From positions 1 to 44,073 of IMG/VR virus record IMGVR_UViG_3300033151_000074: a stretch of DNA of 44,073 nt. One strand, given 5' to 3'. The notes below the pieces were generated by a model. That model was not told the origin of the DNA and made no database searches. It saw only the letters and a program-made list of their open reading frames with translations. The translations under genes were made by a program, and so were the position numbers. Position 1 is the stretch's first letter. Each line of letters starts with the position of its first letter. This document shows positions 7,797 to 38,991 of the stretch, piece after piece. The stretch comes from a virus.

Positions 7797-8204
7797 TCAG
7801 CCTTGGTCAAAGCGACCGATTCTGAGCACCTCCTTGTATTGGTTGTCCAGAATGCCGCGCTTGTGAGCTACCCATGAGAGGAGGATCAGCATGGCTACTG
7901 CGCCAATACCGGTGTAGAGGCAATAGTTTTTCCACACACCGATCTCCTTCTGGGCCATTACAGACTTCTTGATAGCAACCTCACCCCGCGCACGCTCAAG
8001 ATCCGCCATGCCCCTCATGCGCAGCGTATCAGCCTGTGCTGAGGCCAGGGCGGTGATATTCCCACCCTTGGTCTGATTATTGAAGGTATATACCCCGCTC
8101 ATCTCATCTTTGCGGAGGTTGGCCTCTTGCTTGCCGGAGGCGTTGAAACCCCAGCAGCCGGGCAAAAGGAGCAGTACAACAAGGGTAATCAGCGTCATCT
8201 TCAT
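7797..8204 (-). CDS. Lipoprotein with C-terminal membrane segment
   Basis: A 135-residue protein with a typical lipoprotein signal peptide, MKMTLITLVVLLLLPGC, placing the lipidated Cys at residue 17, and a second hydrophobic segment at about residues 94-112 (YCLYTGIGAVAMLILLSWVA) with a charged tail. Lipidation plus a transmembrane helix could link two membranes, as unimolecular spanins do, but the order of Cys and helix and the short length leave this open. The start overlaps the stop of the 1752-residue protein gene as ATGA. It is the last gene of the late block. Confidence 0.7.
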   Translation of the reverse strand: MKMTLITLVVLLLLPGCWGFNASGKQEANLRKDEMSGVYTFNNQTKGGNITALASAQADTLRMRGMADLERARGEVAIKKSVMAQKEIGVWKNYCLYTGIGAVAMLILLSWVAHKRGILDNQYKEVLRIGRFDQG

Positions 8205-11200
8205 CGGTTAGCCTTTCTGTTGGCCTTCAATAGGAGTTGCTCTACTCTGGGTTCGAGTCGTTCTCGTGTTCTGGTAGCGGTGCTGAGAGCTCGCTGAACA
8301 GCCAGGTTTCGTTCCTGTGACGTTTTGGCGGCTGACGTGGCTCGTAGCTGGTCGTAGAAAGAGCGTGCCTCAGCGGTCCTGCTCTGTCCTGTACGGGCGA
8401 ATATGTCCATTACGGCCTCTGGGTCTCTCGATCCGAAGGCTCCAGGGTCTCTCAGGAAGCCCAGAGACTTGGTTGTGGTGCGGAATGGTGTCTTATCCTC
8501 ACGACCGATGTCGGATAGCCCTTGAGCCACCCTGCCGTAGTCAGAAGTGAAGCTGTTTATGACGAAATCGGTCTGCCTTGGGTCCACATTCAGCATGCTT
8601 GCCAGCCATTTACCCAGGTTCGAGGCACGTTTCGCCCCTTTTCTCAGGCTGATATGCAGGTCTTTCTCGTAATCAGGCACGATATTCTTGTCCCGGAACA
8701 GGTCTTTATTGGTCATCAGCTCGATAAACGGCTTCATTGGGCCCAGGAGCATGGCTTCATCGGTGGGGCTGAGTGACTTGGCAAGGGACGGTAGATACCC
8801 CTCAAGAGCTCTCTTGTTGCCTGTGACGCGATCTATGATCCTCTCAACACCTGTACCAAGGGCACCCTGCTCAAACGGCTTTGGCACCGTCATCCAGTGA
8901 TCACCCACCTTGAAGTTCCAGAAGTTGTCCCGGCGCCATGCAGGTAGCTGACGATATTCGTCACCAGCACCCACAGAGTCGTTATACATCATCGTGCCAA
9001 CAGACGGAGCGATAACGTAGGTAGCCATACGCTTGGCGAACTGCCACTTGTCTTTCATACCGGTACGGATAAGCTTGGCAGTACCCTGGAGGGCAGGATT
9101 CAGGAACGGAATCACTCGGTTAAGCTGCCTGCCCCACGATCCGGCAACAGCAAAGTCCATCAGATCTCTGGACCTGGAGGCAGCAACCCGCTCGATCTCA
9201 GCAGCAGGCATGTTCGGATGGGCCTTTCTCAGCTCATCCATGGCCCCGGTAAACTCTGCCATACGGTTCTGGGTCTCAGACTTTGAGATCAGTTCGCCCC
9301 ACTTCTCCCAGTTGCCAGACAGGAAGTCACCCATTCGCTTGGGATCCATCATGATATTCTTCTTGTCGGTAGCCAGGTCGCGCATCTGACGAGTGACCAT
9401 CTTGTTCCAGCCCTCGTTCACGTCGTCATACCATCCAGCTTGATCGCCACCAGCCTCAATGAATCTTGAAACCTCATCAGCATCAATCGGCTTGAAGCCA
9501 GCGAGGATGCCAGTTCCAGTGTCAGACACGATAGCCCTGTGTACACTATCCTTGATAAAGTTGCGTAGCGCGAAGCCGGGAGTCTTGGTCACAGTAGCCT
9601 TGATCAGGTTCGACGGAGCACTGAGCACCTTCATTATCGAGCCAGCAGGTTCAGCCCTGCCAATGTTCTCGATCGACCCGAGCAGGTTCTTGTCAGCGAA
9701 CTGCCAGTAGGTCTTCTCACCATTAACGAATACCGGCACAGAGTCGGCTTCACCTTGACTCACTCTCTTGATGCCCATGTCGGCAAGCATATCTGGATCT
9801 ACTTCGCTCACCCAACGCTGCATAACTTCATTGACATCAGCCCTGCGCTTCCAGTTGACCATGGAAGAGATAGTCTCGGTAACAGGGTTCTTAATCTGAC
9901 GCTCCGATCCCTCGAATGTATGCCACAGCTTGCCACCAGCACCACTGGATCTCTGGACCTCATCATCCATGACGCGCTGGAATGGCGTGTAGTAATCACC
10001 CTTGGCAGCAGCAAGCTCGTAAGCCTCGTCATCAATCAGCCCCTTTGCGTGGACGTAATCAAGCTTGGCTCTGTTGATCTCTTGCGTGACTGCGAACGTC
10101 TTCTCTAAAGCCTCACGCTCTGGAGCACTTGCGGTATGAGTCATAAACTGACGATGGAACTCCATGTCCGTCATGCCATGGTCAGCACCAGCACCAGTCA
10201 TTGTCTCGCCCCACTTGTTGACCTTCTGCATCAGCATAGCGGTAACATCTTCACCAGCCTCGGCAGCAGCCTTAAGCTCATCGACTTGGCCAGCATCGAG
10301 AATGCCACGAGTAACAAACTTGGCAGCACTGGCAGGATCATCAAGGAATGTCTGGGCAGCAACAGCCATCTCGTCAAACTCACCAATGGCTCTGCGTGAA
10401 ACCGCATAGTTGTCGGCGAGCTTCATCACTCTCTCCATATCCGCATCACTGAACTTGCCCTTGGATTTCTTCAGGAAGTCGGCAATGGGTTGAGCAATGT
10501 CAGTAACCATGTTGCCGGTCTTGCCCTTGTACAGAGCCTTGCCGGTGAATGGATGCTTGAGGCCCTTGGTGATAACATGCTTCGCGTGACCGAGTAATCC
10601 GGGAAGGTTCTGCAGGAGTACATGAGCAGCAGCCCTGGAGCCGAGTACTTCAGCGCCCTTGGCAGTTTCTTTCATCAGGCTACGGATACGAGTCTGCGTA
10701 TCAAACAGCGGCTCAACGATACCCGTAATGAATGCTTCCTTGCGACCCTTGGGGCTCTTTAATGTCTGGGCGAATTTAAGCAGCTTGTCAACCTTGCCAA
10801 CAGGTTCAGCAATAGACTGAACGTGCTCACTGTCCAGCACCTTGTCGTAAATGTTTTTGGTCTCGTATTGGAACTTGTTCAGGGTAACACCAGTGTCAGC
10901 CTCGCGAGCAAACACATCGCCTTCACGCCACTTCGCAATGGTGCCCGACTCTGTGGATCTGCCGGTCACGCCTTCGTACATCTTGACAAAGAACTCCTTG
11001 ATGCGATCGAACATGGATCTGTTCTCGCTAAGAGCATTGGCCAGGCCACTCGCAATCTTCTCTTCATCGTCACCGAATCGTGACACGAGAGACACCCATT
11101 CATTGTCTGAGAAGAGGCCCAGGCCCTTTGCAAAATGTACCATCTCGTGATCGAACGTATCCTTGGTTGCCATGAGCGATAGGTCTACCTGACCAACGCC

Positions 11201-13459
11201 TTTGGAATCCATGATGTAACGCCCAAGAACTTCCTCTCCGGGTCTTAAGCCCAGAGGTGCAGGTATGTCATCAATGGTTCTGACAACAGCCTTTGCGCCA
11301 TTGTTCATCGTCAGGTGAGTGTTGCCGCCAACCGTGTCCACGTTCTTGATGTGAGGTGAGCCGAGTACGGACTGCAGGACTTCTACTGGGGTTCCGGTTC
11401 TGCGAGAGGTGGAGTACAGGTACGCCGCTTCATCGCCACGCCCAGCAAGCTCAAGTTGCTCTCGTGCATCGGCGAGGTCAAGTGGAGTCGCAGTCCTAAG
11501 ATCAGGAAGGATGTCCGTGAGCGTGCCGCCAACCTCTTCGCTGGCCTGGAAATCAAGTGAGAGCGGTGCCTTCTTAGCCCTTGAGACCAAGCCCCTCAAT
11601 TCGTTGCGAGCATATCCACTGATGGATGCCCGGATCTTGTTCATGGGATCTTTGCCTGCAATCACCACGTCGTCAGCAGTCTTGCTGGTAAGCAGGTTAG
11701 TGTAGATCTGCTGGGTAGCATCTTCCAGAGCGTCTGGATCTTTGATGTACTTGGATGCGCTTCTACGGGCAGCGTCGAGTGTCTGGTCTATGATACCCTC
11801 GTCGGTGGTCAGAAGGTCTCTGAAGGTTTGACCTGGAGCTGCTGGTGGAGTAACACCCAACGCTTTCGCTGCGGGTGTGGGCAGGGCTTTGGTGGTAGGC
11901 TGAACAAGGGAGTCGTGAATCATGCTCTCGATGCGTTTGGCTTTATCGGCCAACTCCTTCTTTAGCGAATTCTTTCCGGCCTGAGTAAGCGGCCCCTTAT
12001 CCAAGTACTCCCCAAGGTCAAGATGAGGCTTACCAAGACTCTCCATGTGATTCTCGGCAACGACACGTAGTATGCGCTGCAGACGGCCCTCCCTGTCCCT
12101 CGCCAGCTTCTCGGTATACTGTGACGCGGTGTATGCGCCAAGCTCATCATCTGGCCTAATGCCATAAGCCTCGTCAAGAACCTTGCGCGACAAGGCATCC
12201 TCGATGTCTATCTTAGAGAGATTGTCTACCAGTGCGTCTGCGCTCTGGTGAAGCTCGGCCTTGCCTATAGCATCACGCTTCTTCATTAAGGCATTGACGA
12301 TTGGATCATCGAAGTGGTCCTCAAACCGGCCACCCTGCTCCAATATCTCATCAATGCGATCATCCATAAGCGATTGAATTTCATCATACGACTTGCCGGC
12401 GGTGTCTGGAATTGATTGACCAGCAGTCAGTGGCCTTGCGTCGGTCGCATATTCCACTGCAGCCTCAACCCTTATCGGTTTGTCAGCGGGAGTGAGTAAG
12501 TTCTTGACAGGGTCAGGTAAGGCTTTGGATGCTGGAGCTGTTGGTGCGCCCAACTGTCTCTGCCCAGCCCCCGTAAGAGCCTCAAGCGTCGGATCAATCG
12601 TGCCGACATCCTGTGGTGCCTCAGCGAGACCTCTGCCGAAACGTTGTGGCTCTGGAGCGAGTAGCTGTCTGAGCTGATCGTCACTGGTAGCTATCGGCAT
12701 ATCGTCGAAGCTGAATGATTTGGTTGGCAGCGGGATGTCACCTGGATCGCCAAGCCTTGCCAGATCTACTGCTGACTCTCCAGCATTGAGACCACGCCCC
12801 GTAAGCTGAACCATTGGGTTGCGGTTGAATACTCTGCCGCGATTGAACAGTGTTGATGCTGCATCTCGCGTAGTGCGATCGGTCAGCGACTCAAGACCAG
12901 TCCTGGCTACTTGGGCAATATCCTCAGCGCCCATGCCTGCTCTTGCCAACCGTTTAGATTGACCAAGAAGACTGCGACCAGCCAAAGCACCTGGAGCGGT
13001 TGCGAAGTCCAGAACCGTCAGAGGGTCAGTACCGATCTCGCCGGCAATTAGACCAGCCTTGCCGAGACCTGTGCTTGCGAAACGCTCAGTCTCTTCAGGG
13101 CCTTGATGACGGAGAACGGTTTCGTATCCGGTCAGAGTCTCTTGGCCGAGATCGAGCGGCTTGCCCTGCAATGTCTGGAAACCAGATCGCTGTCCACGGT
13201 CAACACCGAGTAGGCCGGCAATGCCACGTAGGGATGGGTCAACGTTAAGCTGGCTCTCAGGACTGAAGTCGAAGTCGCTGGCCATTGATCCTTCTCTGGA
13301 TAGCCCAACAGCGTTGAGTCCAGGCATGATCAGATTATTGAACGCAAGGTTGCCGAGCCTGCTTGTGGCCGTTAGCGGAGCAAGAGCCGTCTGTAAGAAT
13401 CCAGGGTCACGATCGGCCCCGGACATCTCTGCAACCATACTATCAAAGATCTCTCCCAT
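8201..13459 (-). CDS. Giant polyvalent ejection protein with sigma-like and zinc-protease-like segments
   Basis: A 1752-residue protein at the end of the tail module, where P22 and T7-like phages encode ejected internal proteins. Residues 555-640 resemble sigma-70 region 2: DPDALEDATQQIYTNLL, then SISGYARNELRGLVSRAKK followed by SLD. Residues 771-775 are HEMVH, the HExxH zinc-protease motif, in DTFDHEMVHFAKGLG. The C-terminal third (YRQLPAW near 1502, then VPKPFEQGALG) resembles the LPD38 domain of large polyvalent proteins. The rest is mainly helical. Its start overlaps the upstream stop as TAATG. It probably enters the host with the DNA; the enzymatic roles are inferred from motifs. Confidence 0.85.
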   Translation of the reverse strand: MGEIFDSMVAEMSGADRDPGFLQTALAPLTATSRLGNLAFNNLIMPGLNAVGLSREGSMASDFDFSPESQLNVDPSLRGIAGLLGVDRGQRSGFQTLQGKPLDLGQETLTGYETVLRHQGPEETERFASTGLGKAGLIAGEIGTDPLTVLDFATAPGALAGRSLLGQSKRLARAGMGAEDIAQVARTGLESLTDRTTRDAASTLFNRGRVFNRNPMVQLTGRGLNAGESAVDLARLGDPGDIPLPTKSFSFDDMPIATSDDQLRQLLAPEPQRFGRGLAEAPQDVGTIDPTLEALTGAGQRQLGAPTAPASKALPDPVKNLLTPADKPIRVEAAVEYATDARPLTAGQSIPDTAGKSYDEIQSLMDDRIDEILEQGGRFEDHFDDPIVNALMKKRDAIGKAELHQSADALVDNLSKIDIEDALSRKVLDEAYGIRPDDELGAYTASQYTEKLARDREGRLQRILRVVAENHMESLGKPHLDLGEYLDKGPLTQAGKNSLKKELADKAKRIESMIHDSLVQPTTKALPTPAAKALGVTPPAAPGQTFRDLLTTDEGIIDQTLDAARRSASKYIKDPDALEDATQQIYTNLLTSKTADDVVIAGKDPMNKIRASISGYARNELRGLVSRAKKAPLSLDFQASEEVGGTLTDILPDLRTATPLDLADAREQLELAGRGDEAAYLYSTSRRTGTPVEVLQSVLGSPHIKNVDTVGGNTHLTMNNGAKAVVRTIDDIPAPLGLRPGEEVLGRYIMDSKGVGQVDLSLMATKDTFDHEMVHFAKGLGLFSDNEWVSLVSRFGDDEEKIASGLANALSENRSMFDRIKEFFVKMYEGVTGRSTESGTIAKWREGDVFAREADTGVTLNKFQYETKNIYDKVLDSEHVQSIAEPVGKVDKLLKFAQTLKSPKGRKEAFITGIVEPLFDTQTRIRSLMKETAKGAEVLGSRAAAHVLLQNLPGLLGHAKHVITKGLKHPFTGKALYKGKTGNMVTDIAQPIADFLKKSKGKFSDADMERVMKLADNYAVSRRAIGEFDEMAVAAQTFLDDPASAAKFVTRGILDAGQVDELKAAAEAGEDVTAMLMQKVNKWGETMTGAGADHGMTDMEFHRQFMTHTASAPEREALEKTFAVTQEINRAKLDYVHAKGLIDDEAYELAAAKGDYYTPFQRVMDDEVQRSSGAGGKLWHTFEGSERQIKNPVTETISSMVNWKRRADVNEVMQRWVSEVDPDMLADMGIKRVSQGEADSVPVFVNGEKTYWQFADKNLLGSIENIGRAEPAGSIMKVLSAPSNLIKATVTKTPGFALRNFIKDSVHRAIVSDTGTGILAGFKPIDADEVSRFIEAGGDQAGWYDDVNEGWNKMVTRQMRDLATDKKNIMMDPKRMGDFLSGNWEKWGELISKSETQNRMAEFTGAMDELRKAHPNMPAAEIERVAASRSRDLMDFAVAGSWGRQLNRVIPFLNPALQGTAKLIRTGMKDKWQFAKRMATYVIAPSVGTMMYNDSVGAGDEYRQLPAWRRDNFWNFKVGDHWMTVPKPFEQGALGTGVERIIDRVTGNKRALEGYLPSLAKSLSPTDEAMLLGPMKPFIELMTNKDLFRDKNIVPDYEKDLHISLRKGAKRASNLGKWLASMLNVDPRQTDFVINSFTSDYGRVAQGLSDIGREDKTPFRTTTKSLGFLRDPGAFGSRDPEAVMDIFARTGQSRTAEARSFYDQLRATSAAKTSQERNLAVQRALSTATRTRERLEPRVEQLLLKANRKANR

Positions 13460-14460
13460 TAGAACAATCCTCCAATACCTGGAGCACTCCTCAGGTCTGA
13501 ATACAGCTCACCTTGAATGCTCTTGCGCTTGAATGCTAGTGACCTAAGTCTCTGAATCTCGTCCTGGGTTGCAACGCCTTCTTGAATCTTCCGCTCAATC
13601 TTGCTGATCTCATCACCGAACTGCCTGTCGAAACGATACTCGGAAGCCACAGTGCTTGGACTCGTGAGGAACCTTCCTGCAGTACCGAGAAGACTTGGGT
13701 TAACAGTCGGTTGCCTGCCAATCGCAGTTCTTACTGCTTGGGCACCTGACCCCTGAACACCAGAGATGGACTCAAGTCTACGAGCAGCATCCCTGACAAC
13801 CTGGCTTGACTGAGTGCCTCCTGCTGCAAGAGCCGAGGTGATATCCTGCTGAGTGTTCTGCTGAAGGTCGGCAAGCTTGATTCGGTCAGCCAAGCTCGTG
13901 GCCTTAACCTGTCGTGGTGCAAGATTGCGTGCAGCCTGCGGGAACATGGCATTGAATGCAGGATCTCTGCCTATGCCGGGATCGCTTAGATTGAAGTTCT
14001 CGCTCAAGAAGCCCTGTGTTGCCGCAAGACGATTCTGCGGAAGCCCTGCCTCAAACTGCCTCTCAGACAAACCCAACCGATCACGACTGAGATTGTTCTG
14101 AAGACTACGCTGCACAATATCCTGCTGCCGGTAATCACCCTGCCGAGCAAACAAACGATCACGCTGAGCAAGATCCTGTTGACGGAAGTCACCCTGGCGA
14201 GCAAACTGCTGCTGACGAAGAGACATGTTCGCATTGAACTGACGATCCTGCTGAGACATCTGCTGACCACGCCAATAGTTCTGCTGGTTCTGGTTGGCAA
14301 CAAAGTTAGCCTGGTCCTGCTGATCATTGGCAAGCCGTAGCGAGTTAGCAAAGTTCTGCTGACCTTGAGCATCACGCCTCTGTATGCCCTGCAGATTGCC
14401 ACGTAAGCGACCGCTGAGACCAGCAATGTTTCCGGCAAGTGCTCCAAATCCTGTTGGCAT
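13459..14460 (-). CDS. Gln-rich internal virion protein, 333 aa
   Basis: A Gln/Arg/Asn-rich protein with repeats in residues 60-150, including two copies of a RQGD(F/Y)RQQD(L/I) unit. The fold is predicted to be long and helical. The C-terminal part has a Ser/Arg-rich helical region ending SAPGIGGLF. GGGAGATAGAA precedes ATG. It sits between another Gln-rich protein and the giant protein, so it is probably one of three ejection or internal core proteins, comparable in position to P22 gp7/gp20 or T7 gp14/gp15. Assignment rests on position and composition. Confidence 0.72.
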   Translation of the reverse strand: MPTGFGALAGNIAGLSGRLRGNLQGIQRRDAQGQQNFANSLRLANDQQDQANFVANQNQQNYWRGQQMSQQDRQFNANMSLRQQQFARQGDFRQQDLAQRDRLFARQGDYRQQDIVQRSLQNNLSRDRLGLSERQFEAGLPQNRLAATQGFLSENFNLSDPGIGRDPAFNAMFPQAARNLAPRQVKATSLADRIKLADLQQNTQQDITSALAAGGTQSSQVVRDAARRLESISGVQGSGAQAVRTAIGRQPTVNPSLLGTAGRFLTSPSTVASEYRFDRQFGDEISKIERKIQEGVATQDEIQRLRSLAFKRKSIQGELYSDLRSAPGIGGLF

Positions 14461-14471
14461 TTCTATCTCCC

Positions 14472-15356
14472 TTACTGTAGCTGACCGATGCTCTGGCCGA
14501 TTTGTCCGAATGGTTGCTGTAACTGCTGACCTTGAGCAAGTTGCTGTAGCGGATTGAACGATCCAAGGAACCCTGCATACGCACGTCCGAGGTTCTGTCG
14601 CTGACCAGACAGGTTGGCTAACTGATTGATTGCCTGCCCACGGTTCTGAGCCTCAAACTGAGCGGCGTTGATGTCAATGCCGGATAGGGTCGAGTTGGCC
14701 TCTTGTCCAGAACGACCGCGAATCATACTCATCAAGTGCTCACGAGATGCACCAGATACTCCCCTGCCGGCAAGACCCCACCGAGCATTGTTCAGAGCAG
14801 CACCTTGATTGGCGGCATTACGCTGTAGAGCTTGACTCTTCATCTGACGGATAGCATTGGGATCCATGCCCGGATTCTCTGCCTGCTGCATCGCCAAGCT
14901 TTGAGTCTTACGAGTCAGCGGATCGTTGAACATACCCTGAAGAGTCTTTGCGCCAGTCTGGAAGTTCTGCTGCATCTGACCCATGGCCTGATCAATGAAC
15001 CCACCCATCTGCTGATTCTGACGAGAGGCAACACCTTGAGCGAACTGAGCACGCTGTTGGCCTTGAGCACGATTCTGGAACTGCATCATCTGCTGGTTCT
15101 GAATCAAGTTCTGAAGCGGCTGCAAGAAGTTCTGAAGCGGCACCTGGAAGCCAGATAGATTCTGACGAGGGTCTCCAGTCTGCTGTACTGACTGAGGTCC
15201 GGATGTTCCGGCCTGTCGAGCAGATCCGCTTTGCGCCTTGGGCGATGGAGGCCGTCTGTACGCAGGTTGAATCTGTCCCTGTCTCTGACCGCCAGCACCG
15301 AATGCAAATGGTGAGGCTGCTGCGAATGCGCTTAGTCCTGCTGTGAATGGTGGCAT
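14472..15356 (-). CDS. Gln-rich internal virion protein, 294 aa
   Basis: A 294-residue protein rich in Gln, Asn, Ala and Gly. The N-terminus (FTAGLSAFAAASPFAFGAG) is small and apolar, and residues 75-90 hold a short repeat, PLQNFLQPLQNL. CAGGAGAATAAC before ATG is a clear ribosome binding site. Composition and place next to the other Gln-rich gene and the giant protein suggest a DNA-ejection protein that could form a conduit across the envelope. No specific family can be named. Confidence 0.7.
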   Translation of the reverse strand: MPPFTAGLSAFAAASPFAFGAGGQRQGQIQPAYRRPPSPKAQSGSARQAGTSGPQSVQQTGDPRQNLSGFQVPLQNFLQPLQNLIQNQQMMQFQNRAQGQQRAQFAQGVASRQNQQMGGFIDQAMGQMQQNFQTGAKTLQGMFNDPLTRKTQSLAMQQAENPGMDPNAIRQMKSQALQRNAANQGAALNNARWGLAGRGVSGASREHLMSMIRGRSGQEANSTLSGIDINAAQFEAQNRGQAINQLANLSGQRQNLGRAYAGFLGSFNPLQQLAQGQQLQQPFGQIGQSIGQLQ

Positions 15357-15369
15357 GTTATTCTCCTGT

Positions 15370-16083
15370 CTATGTGTATGGTCCGGTTGGAACGGGGAAG
15401 GTCGTGTCCGTGTTTGCTGCTACGCCCTTTAGGACTCTTAATTCATCTATCCAGCCATTGAGATAGTAAGTCGAAGAAGATCTCATTATTCCTATATCCA
15501 AAGGTTGTCCACCATCCTCAAGCGCCCCTGAAATAGACGAAGCCGAACCTATCTCTGAGCCATCTATAAACGCTCTCAGGAAATCTCCGTCCCTCACCAA
15601 AGCTACGTGATACCATGTGTCAACAACTGGAGACCATGACCAAGAGTGCTGCTTGGTCCCGCCAGCACCAGTATCGGTAAATACGCCTAACGCCGAAGCT
15701 CCGTCTGCATAAACGAGATTAAACGACACGTCATAAGGGCTGGCCTGGAACTGAGAGACAAAAGGGTTCTGGTCAGCAAAAGAGTTAAATCTAGCCATAA
15801 GCTCAATAGTGAACTCGCCACTTCCGAATTGCCAGTCCGGGCTGTCGATAACGTCAACATAGTCAGAATTACCGTCAAGCAATAGTGAAGCTCCACCAAA
15901 GACACTCTGCGCAGTGTCGATCTGGGCGGTGCCGTTTGCTACGGGAGAATGTCTTCCAGTGGCATCCGTAATAGTGGTGGACTCATCTGCACCGTCACAA
16001 TGCAGAAGGAGTACCGACCCCACGCCACCGGGAGGTGTATCGTCAGCAAAGTGCTTCCTGCGATGTTTAAGTATATGATTCAT
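15370..16083 (-). CDS. LamG/concanavalin-like domain protein
   Basis: A 237-residue protein. After a basic N-terminus (ILKHRRKHFADDTPP) comes one LamG-type jelly roll: LLLHCDGADESTTITDATGRH, FGGASLLLDGNSDYVDV, FTIELMARF, WYHVALVRDGDFLRAFIDG and YLNGWIDELRVLKG. Such domains usually bind glycans, so a receptor-binding or virion-decorating role fits. ATG at 16083 follows the stop of the previous gene as TAAAATG; a GTG at 16095 is an alternative. It belongs to the fibre gene group. Confidence 0.8.
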   Translation of the reverse strand: MNHILKHRRKHFADDTPPGGVGSVLLLHCDGADESTTITDATGRHSPVANGTAQIDTAQSVFGGASLLLDGNSDYVDVIDSPDWQFGSGEFTIELMARFNSFADQNPFVSQFQASPYDVSFNLVYADGASALGVFTDTGAGGTKQHSWSWSPVVDTWYHVALVRDGDFLRAFIDGSEIGSASSISGALEDGGQPLDIGIMRSSSTYYLNGWIDELRVLKGVAANTDTTFPVPTGPYT

Positions 16084-16084
16084 T

Positions 16085-16978
16085 TTACCATTCACTCACT
16101 ACGTTAGTCTTCTTGTATTGAACAAGAACGCCAAACAGCCAGGCGTCTTCCGCCATGTCATCAGTTCCATCAGTGTTGCGATAGACCTCGAAAGGTATTA
16201 GATCATCAAGAGCCGGAGTGCCACCAACAGTCAGGGCAGCAGTTGCCGCCGTGAGCTGTAAGTCAGCGCCGTCATTAGCGAGCACCGCGTCACTTACGGT
16301 CACAGGTGTACCCAATGCAGCATCAATGGCGTCGTCGTCACTCAGAGCACCAGCCTTGATCCCCCACTCAACCGTATCGGCTATGCTTGAGCCAGTCGCA
16401 GAGCTCCAGAAGAACTTGACCTTAACCGTGCTGCGATCCCAACTCTCAGGCATCACCAGCTTGAACTGTGCTCGCTCCTCGGTAGCACCAGTATCGAACG
16501 CTAAGTAATCCACGTCGATATCGTTGGTGCCGTATTCATTGGTTCCGGCCTCAGCCCCATCGGTAGTGCAGGGAATCATTGCCGCAGCGTCAACATAGAG
16601 CGTATCGTAAGATGCTGCCACACCGGTTGCTGCCCCATCGAATGCGAGATACCAACCGGCTTGGGAATCGTAAACAAGTGTCTGTCCGGCATCGAGTGAC
16701 TGCTTGACCAGAATACGCTCAGTCGCGCTCGCATCAGTCTTCACAGTAACGTCGTGTGTCGCAGAGTCAGCGTTATAGATACTCACGTACCGGACAAGCC
16801 TTTGGCCTGCAGCAGGAGCCGCTACCATGTCCACGTCAGTCGTGTCGTTGGTAACTCCATTGTTCTGCCCAACAACATCGGCAGTGGTGTCAATATACGA
16901 CGCAACGAAGTCCATCTCGGTTGCTGCTGCATCACCAAGGACTACCTGTAACTTGGTGGTGGTTGGTAATACAATCAT
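16085..16978 (-). CDS. Phage structural protein, fibre-associated, 297 aa
   Basis: A beta-rich Ala/Thr/Asp-rich protein. Residues 1-115 look like a small phage beta domain (ARYVSIYNAD and VLVKQSLDAGQTLVYD type strands), a motif common in phage structural proteins. Residues 120-297 hold another sandwich with WDRSTVKVKFFWSS and WGIKAG, like carbohydrate-type folds. ATG at 16978 has GGAG six bases upstream. It lies between a fibre-like gene and the LamG gene. A short fibre or fibre adaptor is the likely role. Confidence 0.65.
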   Translation of the reverse strand: MIVLPTTTKLQVVLGDAAATEMDFVASYIDTTADVVGQNNGVTNDTTDVDMVAAPAAGQRLVRYVSIYNADSATHDVTVKTDASATERILVKQSLDAGQTLVYDSQAGWYLAFDGAATGVAASYDTLYVDAAAMIPCTTDGAEAGTNEYGTNDIDVDYLAFDTGATEERAQFKLVMPESWDRSTVKVKFFWSSATGSSIADTVEWGIKAGALSDDDAIDAALGTPVTVSDAVLANDGADLQLTAATAALTVGGTPALDDLIPFEVYRNTDGTDDMAEDAWLFGVLVQYKKTNVVSEW

Positions 16979-16979
16979 G

Positions 16980-18890
16980 TTATGCTCCAAACCATAAGCG
17001 TGCGCGGGTCATGTCACCTTCGCCAAGCGTAACATCTCTATCAGGCATGGTGATCGTTCGTGTCTCTCCGGTGGAGACTGTTGACGCCTCGAATGCAATC
17101 GACTTCGTTGAGTCGGTGTTGTCATTTATCCTGAACAGAGAGTCGCTGAACTCTGAGACAGTACCGCCAACAGCCCCGCCACTTGCGGTAGTAGGGGTGA
17201 TCCCACGAAGGTCAACTGTTGAGTAATACACCCATGACCCGCCAGTCTTTCTAAAGGTGAGCCTTGCGACCAGGAATCCCGTTGAGGACTCTTTACTGAA
17301 CGCCCTTGGTATGGAGAATTCGTCGTAGCCGCTGGAGTCTGTTACCGCACCAGCCAGGGTGTTATAGGTTCCGTTCGGCAAGTTGACTAGTAAGGGAGCA
17401 TACTCGCCGCCCTTGTTCGCCACCTCTATCAGAGTAATGTTAAAATACTTATTGTTGAGAGTCCCGCCTGCCGCGTCATCAACTACGTCATAAAGGTTCT
17501 GCGTCTGAAAGTATGGAGTCGTGTCATGGTTGATGACGTGGATATCTCCGGCTACGGCTGTATTCTTGGCAGCAATAATCTGCTGGTGCATTTGATACAC
17601 TACGCCCGCTCCAGTCTGGACAGTCACGACCCCTGCCGAGCTTGTCGTATAGTCATCGCCACCCTCGCCAGCAATGCCGCTAAACCACAAGGCACCGTCT
17701 CTGCGAATGCGCTCCGTAATATGTGCCAGATGCCCGAGGCTGTTATGGTACAGAGGGTCATTCCAGTTCTGGTTAACCAAGGCACCGTCAGCCGCAACAT
17801 AAGCAGCAGTCTGAACGAGGAAGTATGAGACCTTGATATGCTCCTCGGTAGGCCATTGGGTCTCGCTATTAGTCAATGCCTTCGTGCTGATCGGGACGTA
17901 TACGAAGTTCTCTTGGGGTACGGTAGCCGTGCCTGCTGACAACTCAATACTGCAGATCGGATCGGTGCAGTCCAGCGTGAACTCGCCGGTAGAGAACTGC
18001 ATCGTCAGATCGCCAGTGCCGCCACGCTCAAGAGTCATTGTGATCGTAGCGCCATCGGAAGTCACGAGAGCATCGAAGCCCTCCCTAAACGTACCGGAGA
18101 AGAACCCTGCAAGATCCTCGCCGCGACCGTTACGGATGTTGACATCGAGCATCCCCTCAGTCGCATGCTTCACCAAGATCGTTCCGACTCTGATGATCCA
18201 GTTAGGAATGGTTGGTGGCGTGACCGTCAGTTGACCGTCGATGATATCAAGATATACGACATCATTGACCTCTCCGAACGTGGTGTCAAAATCCCGCACG
18301 ACGCCCATAGTTGTGTACGCACCGCGAGCATCCTCAGCAACATCATTGGTACAGATTGCGATAGTGTTTCTTGCCGACAGGATAGCGGCATTGGCCAGCA
18401 TGACCTCCGGAATGCCATCGGTTGCGCCGCTAAGGTAAACCGCCAAGCCGTTGTCGATCTGCTCGCCCTGCTTATTGCGAGGACGCTCTGCCAGCACTAG
18501 CTCTTGACCTAGCTGGGTCGAGCCGCCATCCGGTCTGCCCATGTCGGTAGTTCCAGAATCGGCATTCCAGGCAAGCTCACCAACCCCCACATCGACGCCT
18601 GCGGTAAGATTGAAGTTAATCTTGTCTATCTCGGTATCACCGGTTACGAGACCTTCGAGAACAGTAATCTGTGCCGCACTCGCAAGGCCTTCTAGGGAAT
18701 TCGTTGCAAGCCGAATTGGATCTGACCCGCCATCATAGTGTGTGGAGGCATGAGTCGTTGACGACTTCTTGGATAGCCCACCAGCAACGGCGCCAGCAGG
18801 TTCATTGAGTCCGGACCACGTTTCGTTCATCCATCTCTCGATGATCGCCGCGTCAGTATCTTTACCTCTGTATTGAAAACCCTTACCCAC
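16980..18890 (-). CDS. Tail fibre or spike-like structural protein, 636 aa
   Basis: A large beta-rich protein. The N-terminus (KGFQYRGKDTDAAIIERWMNETW) may be an attachment head. The middle contains repeated short beta segments, and the end holds FRINDNTDSTKSIAF then RTITMPDRDVTL, a pattern seen near the C-terminus of many phage tail proteins. GTG at 18890 has GGGGAG about ten bases upstream and overlaps the end of the beta-helix gene. Likely a fibre or an appendage that joins the spike to the tail. Confidence 0.7.
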   Translation of the reverse strand: MGKGFQYRGKDTDAAIIERWMNETWSGLNEPAGAVAGGLSKKSSTTHASTHYDGGSDPIRLATNSLEGLASAAQITVLEGLVTGDTEIDKINFNLTAGVDVGVGELAWNADSGTTDMGRPDGGSTQLGQELVLAERPRNKQGEQIDNGLAVYLSGATDGIPEVMLANAAILSARNTIAICTNDVAEDARGAYTTMGVVRDFDTTFGEVNDVVYLDIIDGQLTVTPPTIPNWIIRVGTILVKHATEGMLDVNIRNGRGEDLAGFFSGTFREGFDALVTSDGATITMTLERGGTGDLTMQFSTGEFTLDCTDPICSIELSAGTATVPQENFVYVPISTKALTNSETQWPTEEHIKVSYFLVQTAAYVAADGALVNQNWNDPLYHNSLGHLAHITERIRRDGALWFSGIAGEGGDDYTTSSAGVVTVQTGAGVVYQMHQQIIAAKNTAVAGDIHVINHDTTPYFQTQNLYDVVDDAAGGTLNNKYFNITLIEVANKGGEYAPLLVNLPNGTYNTLAGAVTDSSGYDEFSIPRAFSKESSTGFLVARLTFRKTGGSWVYYSTVDLRGITPTTASGGAVGGTVSEFSDSLFRINDNTDSTKSIAFEASTVSTGETRTITMPDRDVTLGEGDMTRARLWFGA

Positions 18891-21006
18891 TGGTAATGTT
18901 CTCCCCGCGTCCGTGACTGAGTGCGTGAATCTTCATGCCGTTGAATCTGAGCCGCACGTTCTGCTTCTTGCAGCTAATCTTCTGCTGATACCAATGGCCA
19001 CGGCAATCAACCGGGATGTGAATTCGCTCGGTGTCGCTGCCGATGTAGAGAGTCTGCCAATCAAGACTGTCTGTGCGATACTTGAACTCGATCGCGCTGT
19101 CGTTGCCGTCAATGTTTGCTGCGGTCACGAGTGATACTGGTGAGGTAGTGTCTCCATACGTCCCGCCAGCGTTATAGGCATCAACCGTGAAGGTGTATTG
19201 CCTACCTTGAGATAGATTGGTCAGCGTGTTGGTGCCAGACACAACGGCCTGAGATGTAGATACGCCAGTGTCAACGCGATAGATGTTCAGCACGCCGCTG
19301 TCGAAGTTCTCGCCAGGGGTATACCTGAGACTTAGGTTGTCAGGCCAATTGCTCTCAATCGAAAGCGTACCGGCAGCAGCAGAGCCAGGGACCACAAGTA
19401 TTGGTGCCACGGCAGTAGAGCCTGCAACCGATATCAGCTTGCCGGTTTCAACAGCGTAAGGCGTATACGTCTGCCCTGCAGTAAGGTTGCAAGTCGTTGC
19501 GCTACCAACATCGGCATCAATGATCGCGATCTCTACGCCGGCTGCATTGCGAATGGGTATGATAGTTCCGGCAGGAGCGGTTGCAGAGATCGTCCAGTTT
19601 ACTCCATCGCCAGAATCAGCGATTGCGAATCCGGTTGGGGCTGCAGATACCTCGCCGGTATACGTTCCAGTCAGTGAGCTTGAGGCGCCAAAGGTAACGC
19701 TGTCTTGAACCTCTGCGGTCGTGGCTTCGTGGTATGTTCCTTGCACGTTGTCTACGGTGTCATCTTCGGTTACGTTGCCAACGGCTGGGAAGTCTGGGGA
19801 ATACGTTCCGGTCTTGCTTGCGTTCTGGATTAGGTAGCCAGTGCTGTCGAGAACATTTGCCTCGCCTGGATCTGTGTTGCGTGCTGCCTCGTCGAAGGTT
19901 CCTTGCACGTCATTAACCGTGTCGATCGTTAGGACGTTTTCTACTTCTGGGAAATCCGGTACACCAAAACCGGTATACGCTCCAACGTTTCCAACGCCAT
20001 CAAGAGCTGCACCGGCACCAGCAGCAGTAGTCAGCAAATGAAGGTCTGTTGGGGGATTGACATAATCCGTTTCCGGTCCACCTGTATCTGCTGTAATTTC
20101 GCCGGATATAGGGAAGTCACTTAATCCTGTACGCGGTGTCGTGTTGTCTCGCGTCCTATTATTTACCTCTACAACCGAATTATTGGCCGTGGCCACATAT
20201 GCACTATCAATAAACTTGCTGCAATCGGTGATATGGTTATTAATAACCAACACAACAAAAGAACCCGTGGGATTGTTCCCTAGCTTAATGGCTGTGTCTG
20301 CATCATGTATCGTATTGCCGTAGAATAAGTTGCCGTCAAAACCGTTGTTTTGAATATTAATTGCGATTTGTCCTGACGGCATGTAAAACACATTATCAAT
20401 GAAAGTCCCACCTAAGCCATATGACACTGCTCCATTGGCATTTGGCCTGAACTGGCACCCAATAAACCGAGGTTCATTGTCAGAGTCAAACATGATACCG
20501 TGAGATGCGCCAGAGCATTCAAGATCACAATTAATGAAATCGTGGTAGTTATCACCTATGGCGCAACGTGCAGAAGCGTTATTCAGCGTATTAACAAAAG
20601 AGCAATGAATATACCCAACAACGTCAACACCCCCATTACCTACTAGGTGGGATGCCAGCGCTCCTTCAAAACTTAATGATTCAAGTTGAGTGTAGATAAG
20701 TGGGTTGAAAATCCCGGTAAGTGTGATGACTGGGTAATTCGTTAGGTCGAGTTTGCCTGTGCCGTCTACTCTTGCGCCTACCAAATCACCTATGGTGGCG
20801 TTGTACCCGCGCAACCTACCGCACCCCTGGCTAGTCCCTGCTAAGCCCACTGTGACCGCGCCGGAAGAGTATGCGCCCTTCAAGACGTTGACCGATATAC
20901 TCGGTCCCATAGCGGCAACACCTTCAGCGAAGGTAAACGGGTCACCTTCCGACCCTACACCACCACCACCTGCGTCATCTGCAACATAGTATTCTGTAAA
21001 AGCCAT
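18883..21006 (-). CDS. Right-handed beta-helix tail spike with C-terminal FN3-like domain
   Basis: A 707-residue protein. Residues 1-290 have the features of a pectate-lyase-like parallel beta-helix: a DPFTFAEGVAAM start, GCGRLRGYNA, and rung-like repeats such as FINCDLECSG, FIGCQFRP, FIDNVFYM and NLFYGNTIHDADTAIKLGNN. Residues 350-440 have two diverged copies of a module with DTVNDVQGTFDEA and DTVDNVQGTYHEA. Residues 530-620 resemble an FN3 domain (FTVDAYNAGGTYGDTTSP). Probably a receptor-binding spike that may cut or bind surface polysaccharide. It starts TAATG on the stop of the previous gene. Confidence 0.8.
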   Translation of the reverse strand: MAFTEYYVADDAGGGGVGSEGDPFTFAEGVAAMGPSISVNVLKGAYSSGAVTVGLAGTSQGCGRLRGYNATIGDLVGARVDGTGKLDLTNYPVITLTGIFNPLIYTQLESLSFEGALASHLVGNGGVDVVGYIHCSFVNTLNNASARCAIGDNYHDFINCDLECSGASHGIMFDSDNEPRFIGCQFRPNANGAVSYGLGGTFIDNVFYMPSGQIAINIQNNGFDGNLFYGNTIHDADTAIKLGNNPTGSFVVLVINNHITDCSKFIDSAYVATANNSVVEVNNRTRDNTTPRTGLSDFPISGEITADTGGPETDYVNPPTDLHLLTTAAGAGAALDGVGNVGAYTGFGVPDFPEVENVLTIDTVNDVQGTFDEAARNTDPGEANVLDSTGYLIQNASKTGTYSPDFPAVGNVTEDDTVDNVQGTYHEATTAEVQDSVTFGASSSLTGTYTGEVSAAPTGFAIADSGDGVNWTISATAPAGTIIPIRNAAGVEIAIIDADVGSATTCNLTAGQTYTPYAVETGKLISVAGSTAVAPILVVPGSAAAGTLSIESNWPDNLSLRYTPGENFDSGVLNIYRVDTGVSTSQAVVSGTNTLTNLSQGRQYTFTVDAYNAGGTYGDTTSPVSLVTAANIDGNDSAIEFKYRTDSLDWQTLYIGSDTERIHIPVDCRGHWYQQKISCKKQNVRLRFNGMKIHALSHGRGENITSG

Positions 21007-21302
21007 TAGTCAATCCTTACGGCCCTGACGCAAGCGGCCTGAACGGTATCGAGAACACCAGCGGTTTCCATCTGGGAAATGAATGATGCCAGCTCAGCAA
21101 GCTCTGCGTAGAGAACGGCGCCTGATACACCAGCGGTTCCCTCGGAGGCTCTGTCATCATAAACGGTGGCGTCGTTTGGTATCTGTGCGTTCATGCCAGC
21201 GGTCCACTCCAGCTTAGCCGCCAGTGCCTCGTAGTACATGTTGCGCATCCTCTCCATCAGTGGGCGAATCTTTTCCGCAACGTATCTGTCTTGCTCTGTC
21301 AT
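21006..21302 (-). CDS. Small hypothetical protein in tail cluster
   Basis: A 98-residue mainly helical protein (VAEKIRPLMERMRNMYYEALAAKLEWTAG, then AELAELASFISQMETAG). No signal or membrane segment. AAAGGAAAGTAGG upstream of ATG is a usable ribosome binding site. It lies between the holin candidate and the spike; it could be a chaperone or a virion part, but there is no direct evidence. Confidence 0.7.
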   Translation of the reverse strand: MTEQDRYVAEKIRPLMERMRNMYYEALAAKLEWTAGMNAQIPNDATVYDDRASEGTAGVSGAVLYAELAELASFISQMETAGVLDTVQAACVRAVRID

Positions 21303-21308
21303 GATAAC

Positions 21309-21572
21309 CTACTTTCCTTTTGATAAACGACGATCAATAGCCTTGAGCAACGATAGCGTTTCGCTCTGAACCATGCGCTGCTCTCTCAAATCTTCCTTGG
21401 TCGCGTATGTCGATACCGCGTACACAAACGATCCAGCCAAACCCATGAAGCACATGCCGATCAGCGTGATCGTAATAGCTCTCAGCGTTGGCGAGATTGA
21501 AACCTCAAACAGCTTGTCAACGTGATCATTCAATTTCTTCCGATCTTCCTTACATGCTTCCGGGCAAACCAT
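21309..21572 (-). CDS. Holin candidate, single membrane segment
   Basis: An 87-residue protein with a charged N-terminal helix (ACKEDRKKLNDHVDKLF), one membrane segment at about residues 29-53 (TLRAITITLIGMCFMGLAGSFVYAV) and a charged coiled-coil tail (KEDLREQRMVQSETLSLLKAIDRRL). Size and topology fit a one-pass phage holin or a holin-like membrane protein. No endolysin gene is seen beside it, so the call is moderate. Confidence 0.6.
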   Translation of the reverse strand: MVCPEACKEDRKKLNDHVDKLFEVSISPTLRAITITLIGMCFMGLAGSFVYAVSTYATKEDLREQRMVQSETLSLLKAIDRRLSKGK

Positions 21573-21574
21573 GC

Positions 21575-23338
21575 CTAACCCCCCATTCTCAATTCAGAGT
21601 GTTTAACGTCTTGCTCAAGATGTCCAGTGGAGAGTCCCAATTTCCCCCCAAGTGCCTCAATGCTGATTGCGCCAATGGTGTATGTGCTTGTGGAGTCTGG
21701 TATCGTTGTCCATGCTTCGGTGATTGCGACTGAGTTCGTGGTGTTGCTTTCGATCCAACGCTCTTGACCTTCGCCAGTGCCGGATGCTATTCGGACCATG
21801 ATGCCCTTGACCCCCAGGCCGTCCGTAGGTAGCTGTGCTGAGGTCTCGATGCCCTTGGAGGTCGCAGTGACCACAGAGCCGCTGTAATCGAACCCACCGG
21901 CCCCATCGTTGTAGGCAGCGTTGGTGAAGCCCATGAGAGCGTAACCGTTGCCAGCAGGTATCTCGATGTAGAGGAACTGTCTGCCAGTCGGCGCTACGAT
22001 GGATTTCATGTCCACGATCCGAAAACTTGTCCACACATCCCAAACACGTTGTCCAGGAGGTGCATTCAGTGTGTCCAGGTCGAGAACTGCTATGCGGTCC
22101 AGGAACTCGGTAGACTCGTATGCGAATGCGAAATAGAGCTTATTGTCGGAGACCGCTGAGATAGCGTACTTCTTGCCGTCCTGCACGCTGTTTCTGAGCA
22201 TGTCACCCAGCTCGTCTGAGATCACGATGGATCTGCCGTTGTAATACCAGCAGATGTCATCCCCTGCGAAGTGGATGCAGCCACCATTGGCCAGTACAAG
22301 GCTGTGCTTTGCGGTGCAACCATACGTGGCTCCGGTGCCCACGACGTTGTAGATGCCCTGTAGCGAGCTCTTGCTGACCAGGTATGACGTTTCCTCCGTG
22401 AAGAATAGCGCGTCACCAGCGAAGCCTATCAGCCCCTTAATGCGCCCACCGTCGTCCTGACCGACATTGAACCGGTCTGAGATGCCGAAGTACTCTGGCT
22501 CACCCGGAATGCTGGGAGCGACCTCTGTGGGGTCTCCAATGATCTCGTAAGACTCCTCTGATGGGTCTGAGCCGCGCCAGGGCTCCTGTACATAGGCTGC
22601 GGTGGCCGTGAACCGCTGAGAGGTGTCTACGCTCGCTATGGCATACCCAGTGGATTCGTCAGAGAACCGGAAGCTCTTGCCTTCCATGTCCTTCGTGAGA
22701 TGCACTGCGCCCGTACCGGTGAATACTGCAGAGCCCTCGGTGGCCGAGAAGTAGCCCTCGGTGTATTCCTCTTCGCCGCAAACCATGATGATGTCACTCA
22801 TGACCAGCTCGCAGATTGCCTTGGCTGGAGGACGACCGTAGCGGAATGGACCGGTCAGCAGAGTCTCTTCTTTGAATGGACCCTCAAGGAAGTCTGTGGT
22901 CGCAAGGGATGCATCGTTGCCGTTAAGAGTCAGCGAGGTGGTGCCGTTGGTGACCACGCCTGCGTAATAGAACGGGCTGATCTCATCAACGAGGGTGCGG
23001 TAGACGGTCTGGTACTTGATATGCGGATCACCATGGATCGGGATAGTCACGTCGATGGTCTTGCCGTCAAGGTCTACGGTGACTTCAATTGGATCTGGAT
23101 TACTATCGGTCTTCCAGGGGTTAGCCTTCTTGCCGAGAGTGCTAACCGGGACGATGTGGACCAGATAGTCACCGGCAGCAACATTTCCTGCATTGGTACT
23201 GTAGACAGCAGATCCCTGCGCGGGACCAATCGGTACGCCCCACTTGTAGAACGAGGTGCCAATCTGCTTACGCATGCGAGTGATCTCTGCAAGGTAGCGA
23301 ACGCCGGCCATGGTTACTGTTGTTGGGATGTCTATCAT
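21575..23338 (-). CDS. Tail hub/nozzle-like beta-propeller protein
   Basis: A 587-residue protein matching in character the tail hub or DNA stabilisation proteins of podoviruses (P22 gp10 type). Blade-like strands include EYFGISDRFNVGQ, GDALFFTEETSYLVS, IHFAGDDICWYYNGRSIVISDELG and LYFAFAYE. It begins in mid-domain, at MIDIPTTVTMAG, without the usual N-terminal strand of the family. That strand seems to be in the gene at 24758-26398. GGAGGTGA lies inside the end of the upstream gene, about ten bases before ATG. It would close the tail tube after packaging. Confidence 0.75.
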   Translation of the reverse strand: MIDIPTTVTMAGVRYLAEITRMRKQIGTSFYKWGVPIGPAQGSAVYSTNAGNVAAGDYLVHIVPVSTLGKKANPWKTDSNPDPIEVTVDLDGKTIDVTIPIHGDPHIKYQTVYRTLVDEISPFYYAGVVTNGTTSLTLNGNDASLATTDFLEGPFKEETLLTGPFRYGRPPAKAICELVMSDIIMVCGEEEYTEGYFSATEGSAVFTGTGAVHLTKDMEGKSFRFSDESTGYAIASVDTSQRFTATAAYVQEPWRGSDPSEESYEIIGDPTEVAPSIPGEPEYFGISDRFNVGQDDGGRIKGLIGFAGDALFFTEETSYLVSKSSLQGIYNVVGTGATYGCTAKHSLVLANGGCIHFAGDDICWYYNGRSIVISDELGDMLRNSVQDGKKYAISAVSDNKLYFAFAYESTEFLDRIAVLDLDTLNAPPGQRVWDVWTSFRIVDMKSIVAPTGRQFLYIEIPAGNGYALMGFTNAAYNDGAGGFDYSGSVVTATSKGIETSAQLPTDGLGVKGIMVRIASGTGEGQERWIESNTTNSVAITEAWTTIPDSTSTYTIGAISIEALGGKLGLSTGHLEQDVKHSELRMGG

Positions 23339-23339
23339 T

Positions 23340-24761
23340 TTAGTAAGTCACCTCCATCGAAACACTTTCCCTCTCGATGCTTGCGGCATAAGTGTGTTCG
23401 CCAACTCCTTGATATGTCGAGGAGAGCACAATGTTCGGTCCCGTAACCGAAATCCATACATAGACATCATTGCCACCCATGCTGGCCAGGAAGGTTTCTG
23501 CATCCAATTCTATCTCTATAACAACTGGTGTTGCAGGCACCCCTCCTGCAGTAATCTGAAGCGCATTTAGCTGAGCAAAGGTCATGCTCACGTCTGCCGT
23601 TGCAGCTCTTACCGCAGCGCCGTTTGCGTAAACAGTACCAGACTCGCTTAGGGTGATACTAAAAGTATGCTTGCTGCATTCGGTTGACGGAGACCATGCA
23701 GCCGTACCGGGGTCTGCGTCGTTGTAGATTGCAGACGCGATTACCTTCAGCGTCAGGTTCTTTCCGTCATCCCTCTCGTCGTTGGTAATGCTGAATTTCA
23801 TCCGGCCAGCAGTCCAGTATGAGAAGAAGTGTATCTTGGTATCGGCAGCGACGTTGCCAACATAAAACCTTGCCGGATTATTCTGAACGGGAGTGTCTGA
23901 AAGAGTGGTGTCTGCATCGCCAACGGCCAGAGCGTCTGTTTGCACACCCAGCCAGTATCCATACGCGGCAGGGTCGGTGTCTTCTACGCCAGGATAAGCC
24001 ACGCTGTCGTTACCGTAATATGATCCATATCCGTCATAGGTAGCAACGGTTGCAGCCTTGCCTATCGTAAACGTTCCTGTTGACGAAGACACGAGCCCGA
24101 TTGCCGATGCGGTTATCTTGGCGGCGGTCACCTCGGCCAATCCCCCGCCATCTACGGTAAGGTTTCCGGACCACTCCCCAGCAACCAGATCAACATCTCG
24201 TGTCTTGGCATCCGGATTCGGTGTTGTGAACTTGTCATCAGCATGGGCGCCAACGAGGGTAAGCGTTACGGTATCGGTATTGCCTGTCAGAACATTTCCG
24301 TTGCCGTCTTGTGCCTGAACCGTGAACGGGAATGCTGTACCCCTTCCAACAGTCGTCGGCTCAACCGTAATCACAAGCGTCTGAATAAGCACTGACCGCT
24401 GCATCAAGCCGTTCGGAGTGTAGTCCCTGCCAGTAATGCCTTTGATAGCATTCTCACTCAGGATAGTGCTCACGTAAACAAAGATCGGGGAGATGTTGGT
24501 ATCGGATAACTCAAGCTCGAAGTCTGCGATCGTGACCGTGCCATTGGTGAGAGTAGCCGTTGCATGGTTAGCGGTGACAGGCGAGTTGTTGCCGTCCTCT
24601 ACGCCAATGCCAACCAAGCAGGCCGTGTATCCAGTGTCGGTATCGCCGTCAGCATCTTGAGCAGTAATGACAAGTGGTGCCACGACGCCGTCCTCGAACA
24701 CGTCTGCAGTCGTGGTGATCTCCAGGTCATCTAAGCCAAGAATTGTAATCTCGTTACTCAA
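23340..24761 (-). CDS. Ig-like beta-domain virion protein, 473 aa
   Basis: A Thr/Val/Ala-rich protein made of beta-sandwich segments. Residues 10-90 and 110-220 look like bacterial Ig-like repeats (LVITAQDADGDTDTG and FTVQAQDGNGNVLTGNTDTVTLTL share the QDxxG spacing). The C-terminal 240 residues form another beta domain (MKFSITNDERDDGKNLTLKVIAS, VIEIELDAETF). TTG at 24761 is the start, with GAGGAGGT seven bases upstream, and it overlaps the upstream stop. It may form surface decoration on the tail hub. Confidence 0.7.
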   Translation of the reverse strand: MSNEITILGLDDLEITTTADVFEDGVVAPLVITAQDADGDTDTGYTACLVGIGVEDGNNSPVTANHATATLTNGTVTIADFELELSDTNISPIFVYVSTILSENAIKGITGRDYTPNGLMQRSVLIQTLVITVEPTTVGRGTAFPFTVQAQDGNGNVLTGNTDTVTLTLVGAHADDKFTTPNPDAKTRDVDLVAGEWSGNLTVDGGGLAEVTAAKITASAIGLVSSSTGTFTIGKAATVATYDGYGSYYGNDSVAYPGVEDTDPAAYGYWLGVQTDALAVGDADTTLSDTPVQNNPARFYVGNVAADTKIHFFSYWTAGRMKFSITNDERDDGKNLTLKVIASAIYNDADPGTAAWSPSTECSKHTFSITLSESGTVYANGAAVRAATADVSMTFAQLNALQITAGGVPATPVVIEIELDAETFLASMGGNDVYVWISVTGPNIVLSSTYQGVGEHTYAASIERESVSMEVTY

Positions 24762-35270: not shown

Positions 35271-35518
35271 CAAGTTGGGATTGAACGCTGAGGGGATCTC
35301 GGGAGGGAGAGGCGCCGGATCTGGGGGAGGTGGCGCACCCTGTCCAGCAGCTTCTGCCTGGAGTGCCTGCTGCGCATACTGTTCTTGGATTCTGCCTGGA
35401 GTGCCTGCTGCGCATACTGTTCTTGGACTTGCTGATTCTCTGCGGCAACCGCTTCACGACGCTGCTGCCATTCGCCAAGATCGTATTTGCTGTCTGTACT
35501 GGCAATATTTGCTGACAT
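35270..35518 (-). pseudogene. Displaced portal N-terminus (frameshifted)
   Basis: An 82-residue frame starting SANIASTDSKYDLGEWQQRRE. Removing one copy of the 38-bp repeat restores a frame reading through QALQAEAAGQGAPPPPDPAP and on into LMPELSAEGVEDW, giving a 755-residue portal. As sequenced, the frame turns to a basic, foreign-looking tail and stops at TGA overlapping the portal ATG. Its start ATG overlaps the stop of the previous gene as TAATG. Either a real mutation or an assembly fault. Confidence 0.8.
35352..35427. repeat. 38-bp exact tandem duplication in portal gene
   Basis: Bases 35352-35389 and 35390-35427 are identical. The unit is 38 bp, two more than a multiple of three, and falls in the Gln-rich coiled coil of the portal N-terminus. 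It is the cause of the portal frameshift. Confidence 0.95.
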
Positions 35519-38175: not shown

Positions 38176-38196
38176 GCGACCCCCGTCTATCAAAAT

Positions 38197-38210
38197 GATA
38201 GATGTCTATC
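38197..38210. promoter_or_regulatory. Palindromic operator candidate at late promoter
   Basis: GATAGATGTCTATC: six-base arms GATAGA and TCTATC around TG. A further half-site, GTCTATC, lies at 38185-38191. It sits at or just past the expected start site of the late promoter, where a bound repressor would block transcription. The ten bases TGATAGATGT also occur near 40358-40367, in the leader of the upstream operon. Confidence 0.6.
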
Positions 38211-38220
38211 AATATGAGAG

Positions 38221-38249
38221 ACAATACGACGCTAATTGTCACTTGTCAA
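38221..38249 (-). promoter_or_regulatory. Late operon promoter, sigma-70 type
   Basis: On the minus strand, TTGACA (38249-38244) and TATTGT (38226-38221) with a 17-bp spacer. The -35 box is perfect and the -10 has four of six matches. It points at the terminase genes and would start near 38214. It is the strongest promoter-like sequence I found in the window. Confidence 0.8.
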
Positions 38250-38329
38250 GGGCGTTATTTGAGAAAGTGTGTAAAAATGGGGCACGGTAGGCGGGATGGT
38301 GCAGAAACGGGACCATTGGGGTAGGCCAT

Positions 38330-38357: not shown

Positions 38358-38447
38358 ACGTGTGTTTGGGTGTCACATGACTTCTCCTTCTTGTTTGCTT
38401 ATCCGTTAGAGCACTTATGTTACACCGGGAGCGGGGGATTGCAAGGA

Positions 38448-38982: not shown

Positions 38983-38991
38983 GGAATTCTC

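Follow-up and report, generated by a model that had tools for sequence, protein, structure and literature searches.

A sigma region 2-like segment in an LPD38-type polyvalent protein of an orphan podovirus-like phage

Can a giant phage protein that probably enters the host along with the DNA carry a piece of a sigma factor, and what would such a piece do there? The question is raised by a 1752-residue protein encoded in an IMG/VR virus record of 44,073 bases, whose ends are without repeats; the whole of this record is the window to which all coordinates below refer. An earlier note, made from the letters alone, had read part of the protein as a sigma factor core which might contact host RNA polymerase or promoter DNA and so start phage transcription. 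The motifs on which that reading was built are all located exactly as described, on the minus strand: DPDALEDATQQIYTNLL at residues 574-590 (11690-11740), SISGYARNELRGLVSRAKK at residues 612-630, and SLDFQ at residues 634-638 (11546-11560). The protein and its parts, in order along the polypeptide, are as follows.

8201..13459, minus strand: 1752-aa LPD38-type polyvalent protein (open reading frame; LPD38 E 5e-30; phrog_9854 2.8e-42)
11561..11818, minus strand: sigma region 2-like helical module, residues 548-633 (ECF HMM, hhalign, AlphaFold2 of 534-645, fold comparisons)
11708..11725, minus strand: region 2.2 signature E-D-A-T-Q-Q, residues 579-584 (ECF alignment; the ECF consensus is E-D-L-V-Q-E)
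11570..11626, minus strand: region 2.3/2.4-like helix, residues 612-630 (alignment; 'ARN' kept, the ECF Trp replaced by Ser612)
11477..11560, minus strand: linker-like SLD...GTLTDILPD...TPLD, residues 634-661 (Sigma70_r3, RpoD_Cterm, alignments)
11300..11476, minus strand: expected place of region 4, residues 662-720 (none recognisable; AlphaFold2 pLDDT below 50)
10910..11257, minus strand: zincin-like metallopeptidase, residues ~735-850 (HEMVH at 771-775, conserved E799/E800)
8480..10189, minus strand: conserved C-terminal block, residues 1091-1660, including LPD38 at 1500-1658

The class of the protein is indicated by its LPD38 block, its metallopeptidase and its surroundings. LPD38 (PF18857) is found at 105 bits against a cut-off of 27, and no other Pfam family was returned for the whole protein. 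The metallopeptidase directly follows the sigma-like segment, and its H771, E772, H775 and E799/E800, an HExxH motif with a downstream Glu, match invariant columns in an alignment of eight metallopeptidases from LPD38 relatives. The gene lies downstream, in the reading direction, of structural genes on the same strand, which run TerL, portal, major head protein and tail/internal-virion-like genes, with the 1752-aa protein last; a RecT-like gene and an exonuclease gene are found 3' of it. The late genes identified are the following.

35985-37775, minus strand: large terminase (TerL)
33213-35273, minus strand: portal
30824-32032, minus strand: major head protein

A C-terminal LPD38, an HExxH metallopeptidase, large size and a position at the end of the structural block are traits shared with the phage-type polyvalent proteins (PMC5512222), which are delivered with the DNA according to Iyer et al. 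(2017; PMC5512222) and whose metallopeptidase has been proposed to cut them into working parts (PMC5512222). The virion RNA polymerase (vRNAP) of N4, a virion-borne transcription enzyme, is a member of this class and is always fused to such metallopeptidases (PMC5512222). From the family, as given by LPD38 and the metallopeptidase, and from the position of its gene, which closes the structural block, we infer that the 1752-aa protein enters the host with the DNA.

Curated profiles offer little purchase on the segment. When residues 530-720 were scanned alone against PHROGs, Pfam and NCBIfam, Sigma70_r2 and Sigma70_ECF of Pfam gave no match even at E 10. The best matches were sub-threshold in every library, namely a sigma-K factor in PHROGs (E 0.022), Sigma70_r3 in Pfam (E 0.13) and RpoD_Cterm in NCBIfam (E 0.14), and in three of three libraries this top match was a sigma-factor model. 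Matches around E 0.1 are individually of chance level, and only the agreement of the three libraries is notable. A sequence search of the PDB returned nothing relevant.

A dedicated profile was more discriminating. It was built from sigma factors of plasmids and four bacterial genomes, 22 ECFs being aligned, and as an HMM (HMMER) it scored the segment at 11.9 bits (E 7e-6 for a single target). None of 20,000 composition-preserving shuffles reached this score and, of the 7,123 natural 190-aa decoy windows that were scored (out of 9,283 prepared), the sole one to do so was a genuine phage sigma factor. Profile comparison with hhalign gave a score of 36.8 (prob 73) over 82 columns. The decoys here were some 1,900 equal-length windows of giant proteins (1000 aa or more): a first set of 1,301 peaked at 24.2 and another 631 at 25.2, while 631 shuffles went no higher than 20.6; Gumbel fits yield a P for 36.8 of 8e-6 from the natural windows and 5e-7 from the shuffles. 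Multiplied by the number of families that might have been named (all of Pfam), the former value becomes ~0.2, and sequence alone therefore does not settle the sigma identity. The profile search proposed in the earlier note thus had a divided outcome: no significant match in curated libraries, but selection of the segment by an ECF profile calibrated with decoys. A regular expression devised after the segment had been viewed was discarded as biased; it fits only one of the 22 ECF sequences.

The aligned stretch begins with the helix that precedes region 2.1, includes ARN, reaches the linker and ends short of region 4. A single colinear alignment joins region 2 to the ECF linker (SLD...LP..xTP), where SLDFQASEEVGGTLTDILPDLRTATP of the segment may be compared with SLDAESSEHEGLDGYSMLPSDNRTP of a SigW-like ECF, and residues 634-661 as a whole resemble both the region 2-to-region 4 linker of SigW-like ECFs and the region 3 start of larger sigmas. 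Such colinearity, and the clear separation of the segment from the giant-protein windows and shuffles, speak against a chance resemblance, in which 'ED..Q', 'ARN' and 'SLD' would by accident be spaced as in a sigma factor within an amphipathic, helical part of a rapidly evolving polyvalent protein, a part that would do no more than other helical linkers or packing domains do. The want of significance in curated profiles counts in favour of such a chance resemblance.

Structure prediction bears on the same alternative. AlphaFold2 without an alignment gave a mean pLDDT of 52 for residues 535-723, the first 90 residues being better, and for residues 534-645 alone a pLDDT of 70.9 (core 66-86) and a pTM of 0.56, with a helical region 2 layout. 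Searched against the PDB with Foldseek, the shorter model retrieved ECF sigma factors at ranks 1, 2, 4 and 5, and sigma factors, almost all of them ECF, made up 17 of its 50 listed rows, as against 15 of 50 with the longer model; no match was significant, the best E being 1.2. In VIA-align 2, where by the tool's own warning a Z below 8 can be generic among helical proteins, rows 1-5 for the shorter model were all sigma region 2 at Z 7.5-7.1 (ShbA 7.5, RpoE 7.5, SigK (4nqw) 7.4, Bartonella RpoE 7.3, CnrH 7.1), with SigK matched over 79 residues at an rmsd of 2.9 A. The first non-sigma row, a helical domain of DXR, is tied with sigma at Z 7.1; with the longer model, sigma region 2 filled rows 1-16 and the best of the rest stood at Z 5.9. 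Sigma factors formed only one part of a mixed list when the comparison was made with a viral library.

The ranges derived from structure and from the HMM agree within ~2 residues, and both contain an insertion of 6-7 residues between helices. This agreement is the best argument that structure and sequence see the same thing, with the reservation that both start from the same sequence. The three-helix region 2 layout to which the earlier note tied its reading is seen in the model of the segment folded alone, whose nearest solved structures come from ECF sigma region 2, although the Foldseek E values are insignificant. For the chance resemblance, these data cut both ways: Foldseek E values above 1 and the presence of other helical folds in the same lists favour it, whereas an alignment-free prediction that arrives at the same family in nearly the same register does not.

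In viral and genome contigs no close relative was found for either the segment or the full-length protein, and neither phmmer nor the ECF HMM detected a sigma-like segment in LPD38 relatives from viral contigs (80 loci), in those from bacterial genomes (80 loci) or in metallopeptidase relatives (23 loci). A tblastn search of the segment in phages gave only an insignificant match (E 2). Since some 180 related loci are without it, the segment would seem, by these sequence searches, to be a private cassette of an orphan phage or to have diverged past recognition elsewhere. With no homologue to show conservation, a chance look-alike becomes the main rival, and the missing relatives count in its favour. 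So do comparable scores that arise by chance with unrelated proteins: in two phyla, each searched through about 400 genomes, a 26-bit match of the segment to GlnE was judged to be chance, as was a match to an antisense-looking frame, and the former is a warning about scores of that size. Weighing these points, we regard chance as a serious though rather doubtful explanation, and residues ~545-661 as probably a true, degenerate sigma-2 module. One relative phage with an LPD38 protein (locus L083) also has a phage sigma factor as a separate protein, with an evident region 4 and 48 bits to a combined sigma profile, in an open reading frame on the minus strand (codons 319-611 of the reverse strand, frame 0).

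Among the signature residues, D580 and Q583 align with the D and Q that are conserved in region 2.2, while the acidic position of D-x-x-Q-[ED] is Q584. In known sigma factors the D and Q of region 2.2 contact the beta-prime clamp of RNA polymerase. Further on, Y-A-R-N (616-619) aligns with I-A-R-N. The segment resembles ECF sigma factors in the order of its motifs (ED..Q, long loop, ARN, basic run, SLD linker), as it resembles their region 2 (E. coli RpoE, B. subtilis SigW type, M. tuberculosis SigK/SigH) in predicted helical layout and nearest solved structures. It differs from them in remaining unmatched by Sigma70_r2, in the loss of the region 2.3 Trp, in a loop before the third helix that is ~7 residues longer, and in the lack of a recognisable region 4: no helix-turn-helix was found after the linker, and profile alignments stop near residue 660-680. 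It also lies inside a protein of 1752 aa, whereas an ECF sigma factor is a free protein of 180 aa. The sigma region 2 reading of the earlier note is partly supported: the ECF profile, against which the segment is an outlier, and the predicted fold speak for it, and the absence of a curated match, of the Trp and of a recognisable region 4 against it. The overall evidence for a sigma-like domain is suggestive, and the segment should not be filed as a sigma factor; its proper label is sigma-2-like.

These residues, together with the promoters of the phage, also separate the possible functions. The right-hand 37.7-44.1 kb of the window (37700-44073), presumed to be the early region, contains 12 sigma-70-type promoter-like sites against 6.7 +/- 2.5 in shuffles. 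Ordinary sites being enriched there, an injected sigma is unnecessary to explain early transcription. The most literal form of the sigma reading, an active virion-borne sigma that directs host polymerase to phage promoters and so starts transcription, draws on the same support as a degenerate module and has a precedent in N4 vRNAP as a virion-borne polyvalent transcription protein (PMC5512222). Faced with abundant ordinary promoters, a lost region 2.3 Trp and no region 4 with which to read a -35 element, we consider it highly improbable. True sigma-2 ancestry without any polymerase role, in which a module captured from an ECF was reused for DNA binding or structure (holding a genome end or a protein in the capsid, for example), accommodates the lost Trp and the unrecognisable region 4, and the enriched promoters are in keeping with it in that no sigma of the phage's own is obviously needed. 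It sits less well with the retention of the polymerase-facing D and Q of region 2.2, and we judge it unlikely.

That the sigma-2-like module works by docking on host RNA polymerase is a prospect falling a little short of even. Our preferred, if tentative, explanation has about that strength: a degenerate ECF-type sigma-2 module, carried as a cassette of a polyvalent protein, may dock on host RNA polymerase as a competitor or tether. The polyvalent protein would be packaged and then enter the cell with the DNA, as its family suggests, and the adjoining downstream metallopeptidase could cleave the polypeptide and free an N-terminal part with the module. The region 2.2 face might then dock on the clamp of host RNA polymerase, and the module, without region 4 and the region 2.3 Trp, would compete with or displace host sigma factors. 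It might alternatively tether the polymerase to the incoming DNA, rather than act as a complete promoter-reading sigma factor. Taken as a whole, the sequence of events in which a virion-borne protein delivers a sigma-2 module, freed by the metallopeptidase, to capture host RNA polymerase in the first minutes is speculative and, on balance, not to be expected.

Known virion-borne routes to transcription comprise a whole polymerase, as in N4, or an enzyme modifying the host polymerase, as in T4 Alt. Like N4 vRNAP, the present protein would be a polyvalent protein of the virion with a link to transcription and a fused metallopeptidase, with the difference that N4 vRNAP is the polymerase itself and the segment would only engage that of the host. 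It would share with T4 Alt, AsiA and other modifiers of host polymerase an action on that enzyme early after entry; Alt, however, is an ADP-ribosyltransferase, AsiA is an anti-sigma made as a protein of its own, and neither of them takes the form of a sigma-2-like module within a polyvalent protein. Among the LPD38 polyvalent proteins examined, the 1752-aa protein alone carries the sigma-like segment. Our literature search found no report of a sigma domain in polyvalent or ejected proteins, and the word 'sigma' is absent from the main text of the polyvalent-protein survey (Iyer et al. 2017, PMC5512222). If true, the injection of a sigma-2 cassette as part of a polyvalent protein would constitute a third route to host transcription at entry, and the cassette would be the first sigma-derived domain among such injected proteins, extending the list of cassettes known for the class.

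Several observations concern the phage itself, which is an orphan podovirus-like lineage. Searches with its portal, TerL and other proteins for near kin returned only distant podovirus matches, and the nearest phage by TerL, the Cobavirinae phage T5S1-k141_653015, has no match to the 1752-aa protein. On the minus strand, 13462-26398 holds several large tail/internal-virion genes (e.g. 18883-21006 and 24758-26398) for which PHROGs and the phage collection gave no match. The strands diverge within 37700-44073. Two further genes stand out in the window.

43464-44072, plus strand: serine recombinase (Resolvase N-terminal 6.5e-37), truncated by the record end
27465-28469, minus strand: UDP-galactopyranose mutase-like gene (Pfam GLF 1.4e-45)

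Because the record end cuts the serine recombinase, the record is incomplete on its right side, and the presence of this gene at the right edge makes the phage probably temperate. The UDP-galactopyranose mutase-like gene sits among structural genes, has relatives 35-41% identical in many viral contigs, which reach 225 kb in length, and perhaps serves in surface-sugar modification.
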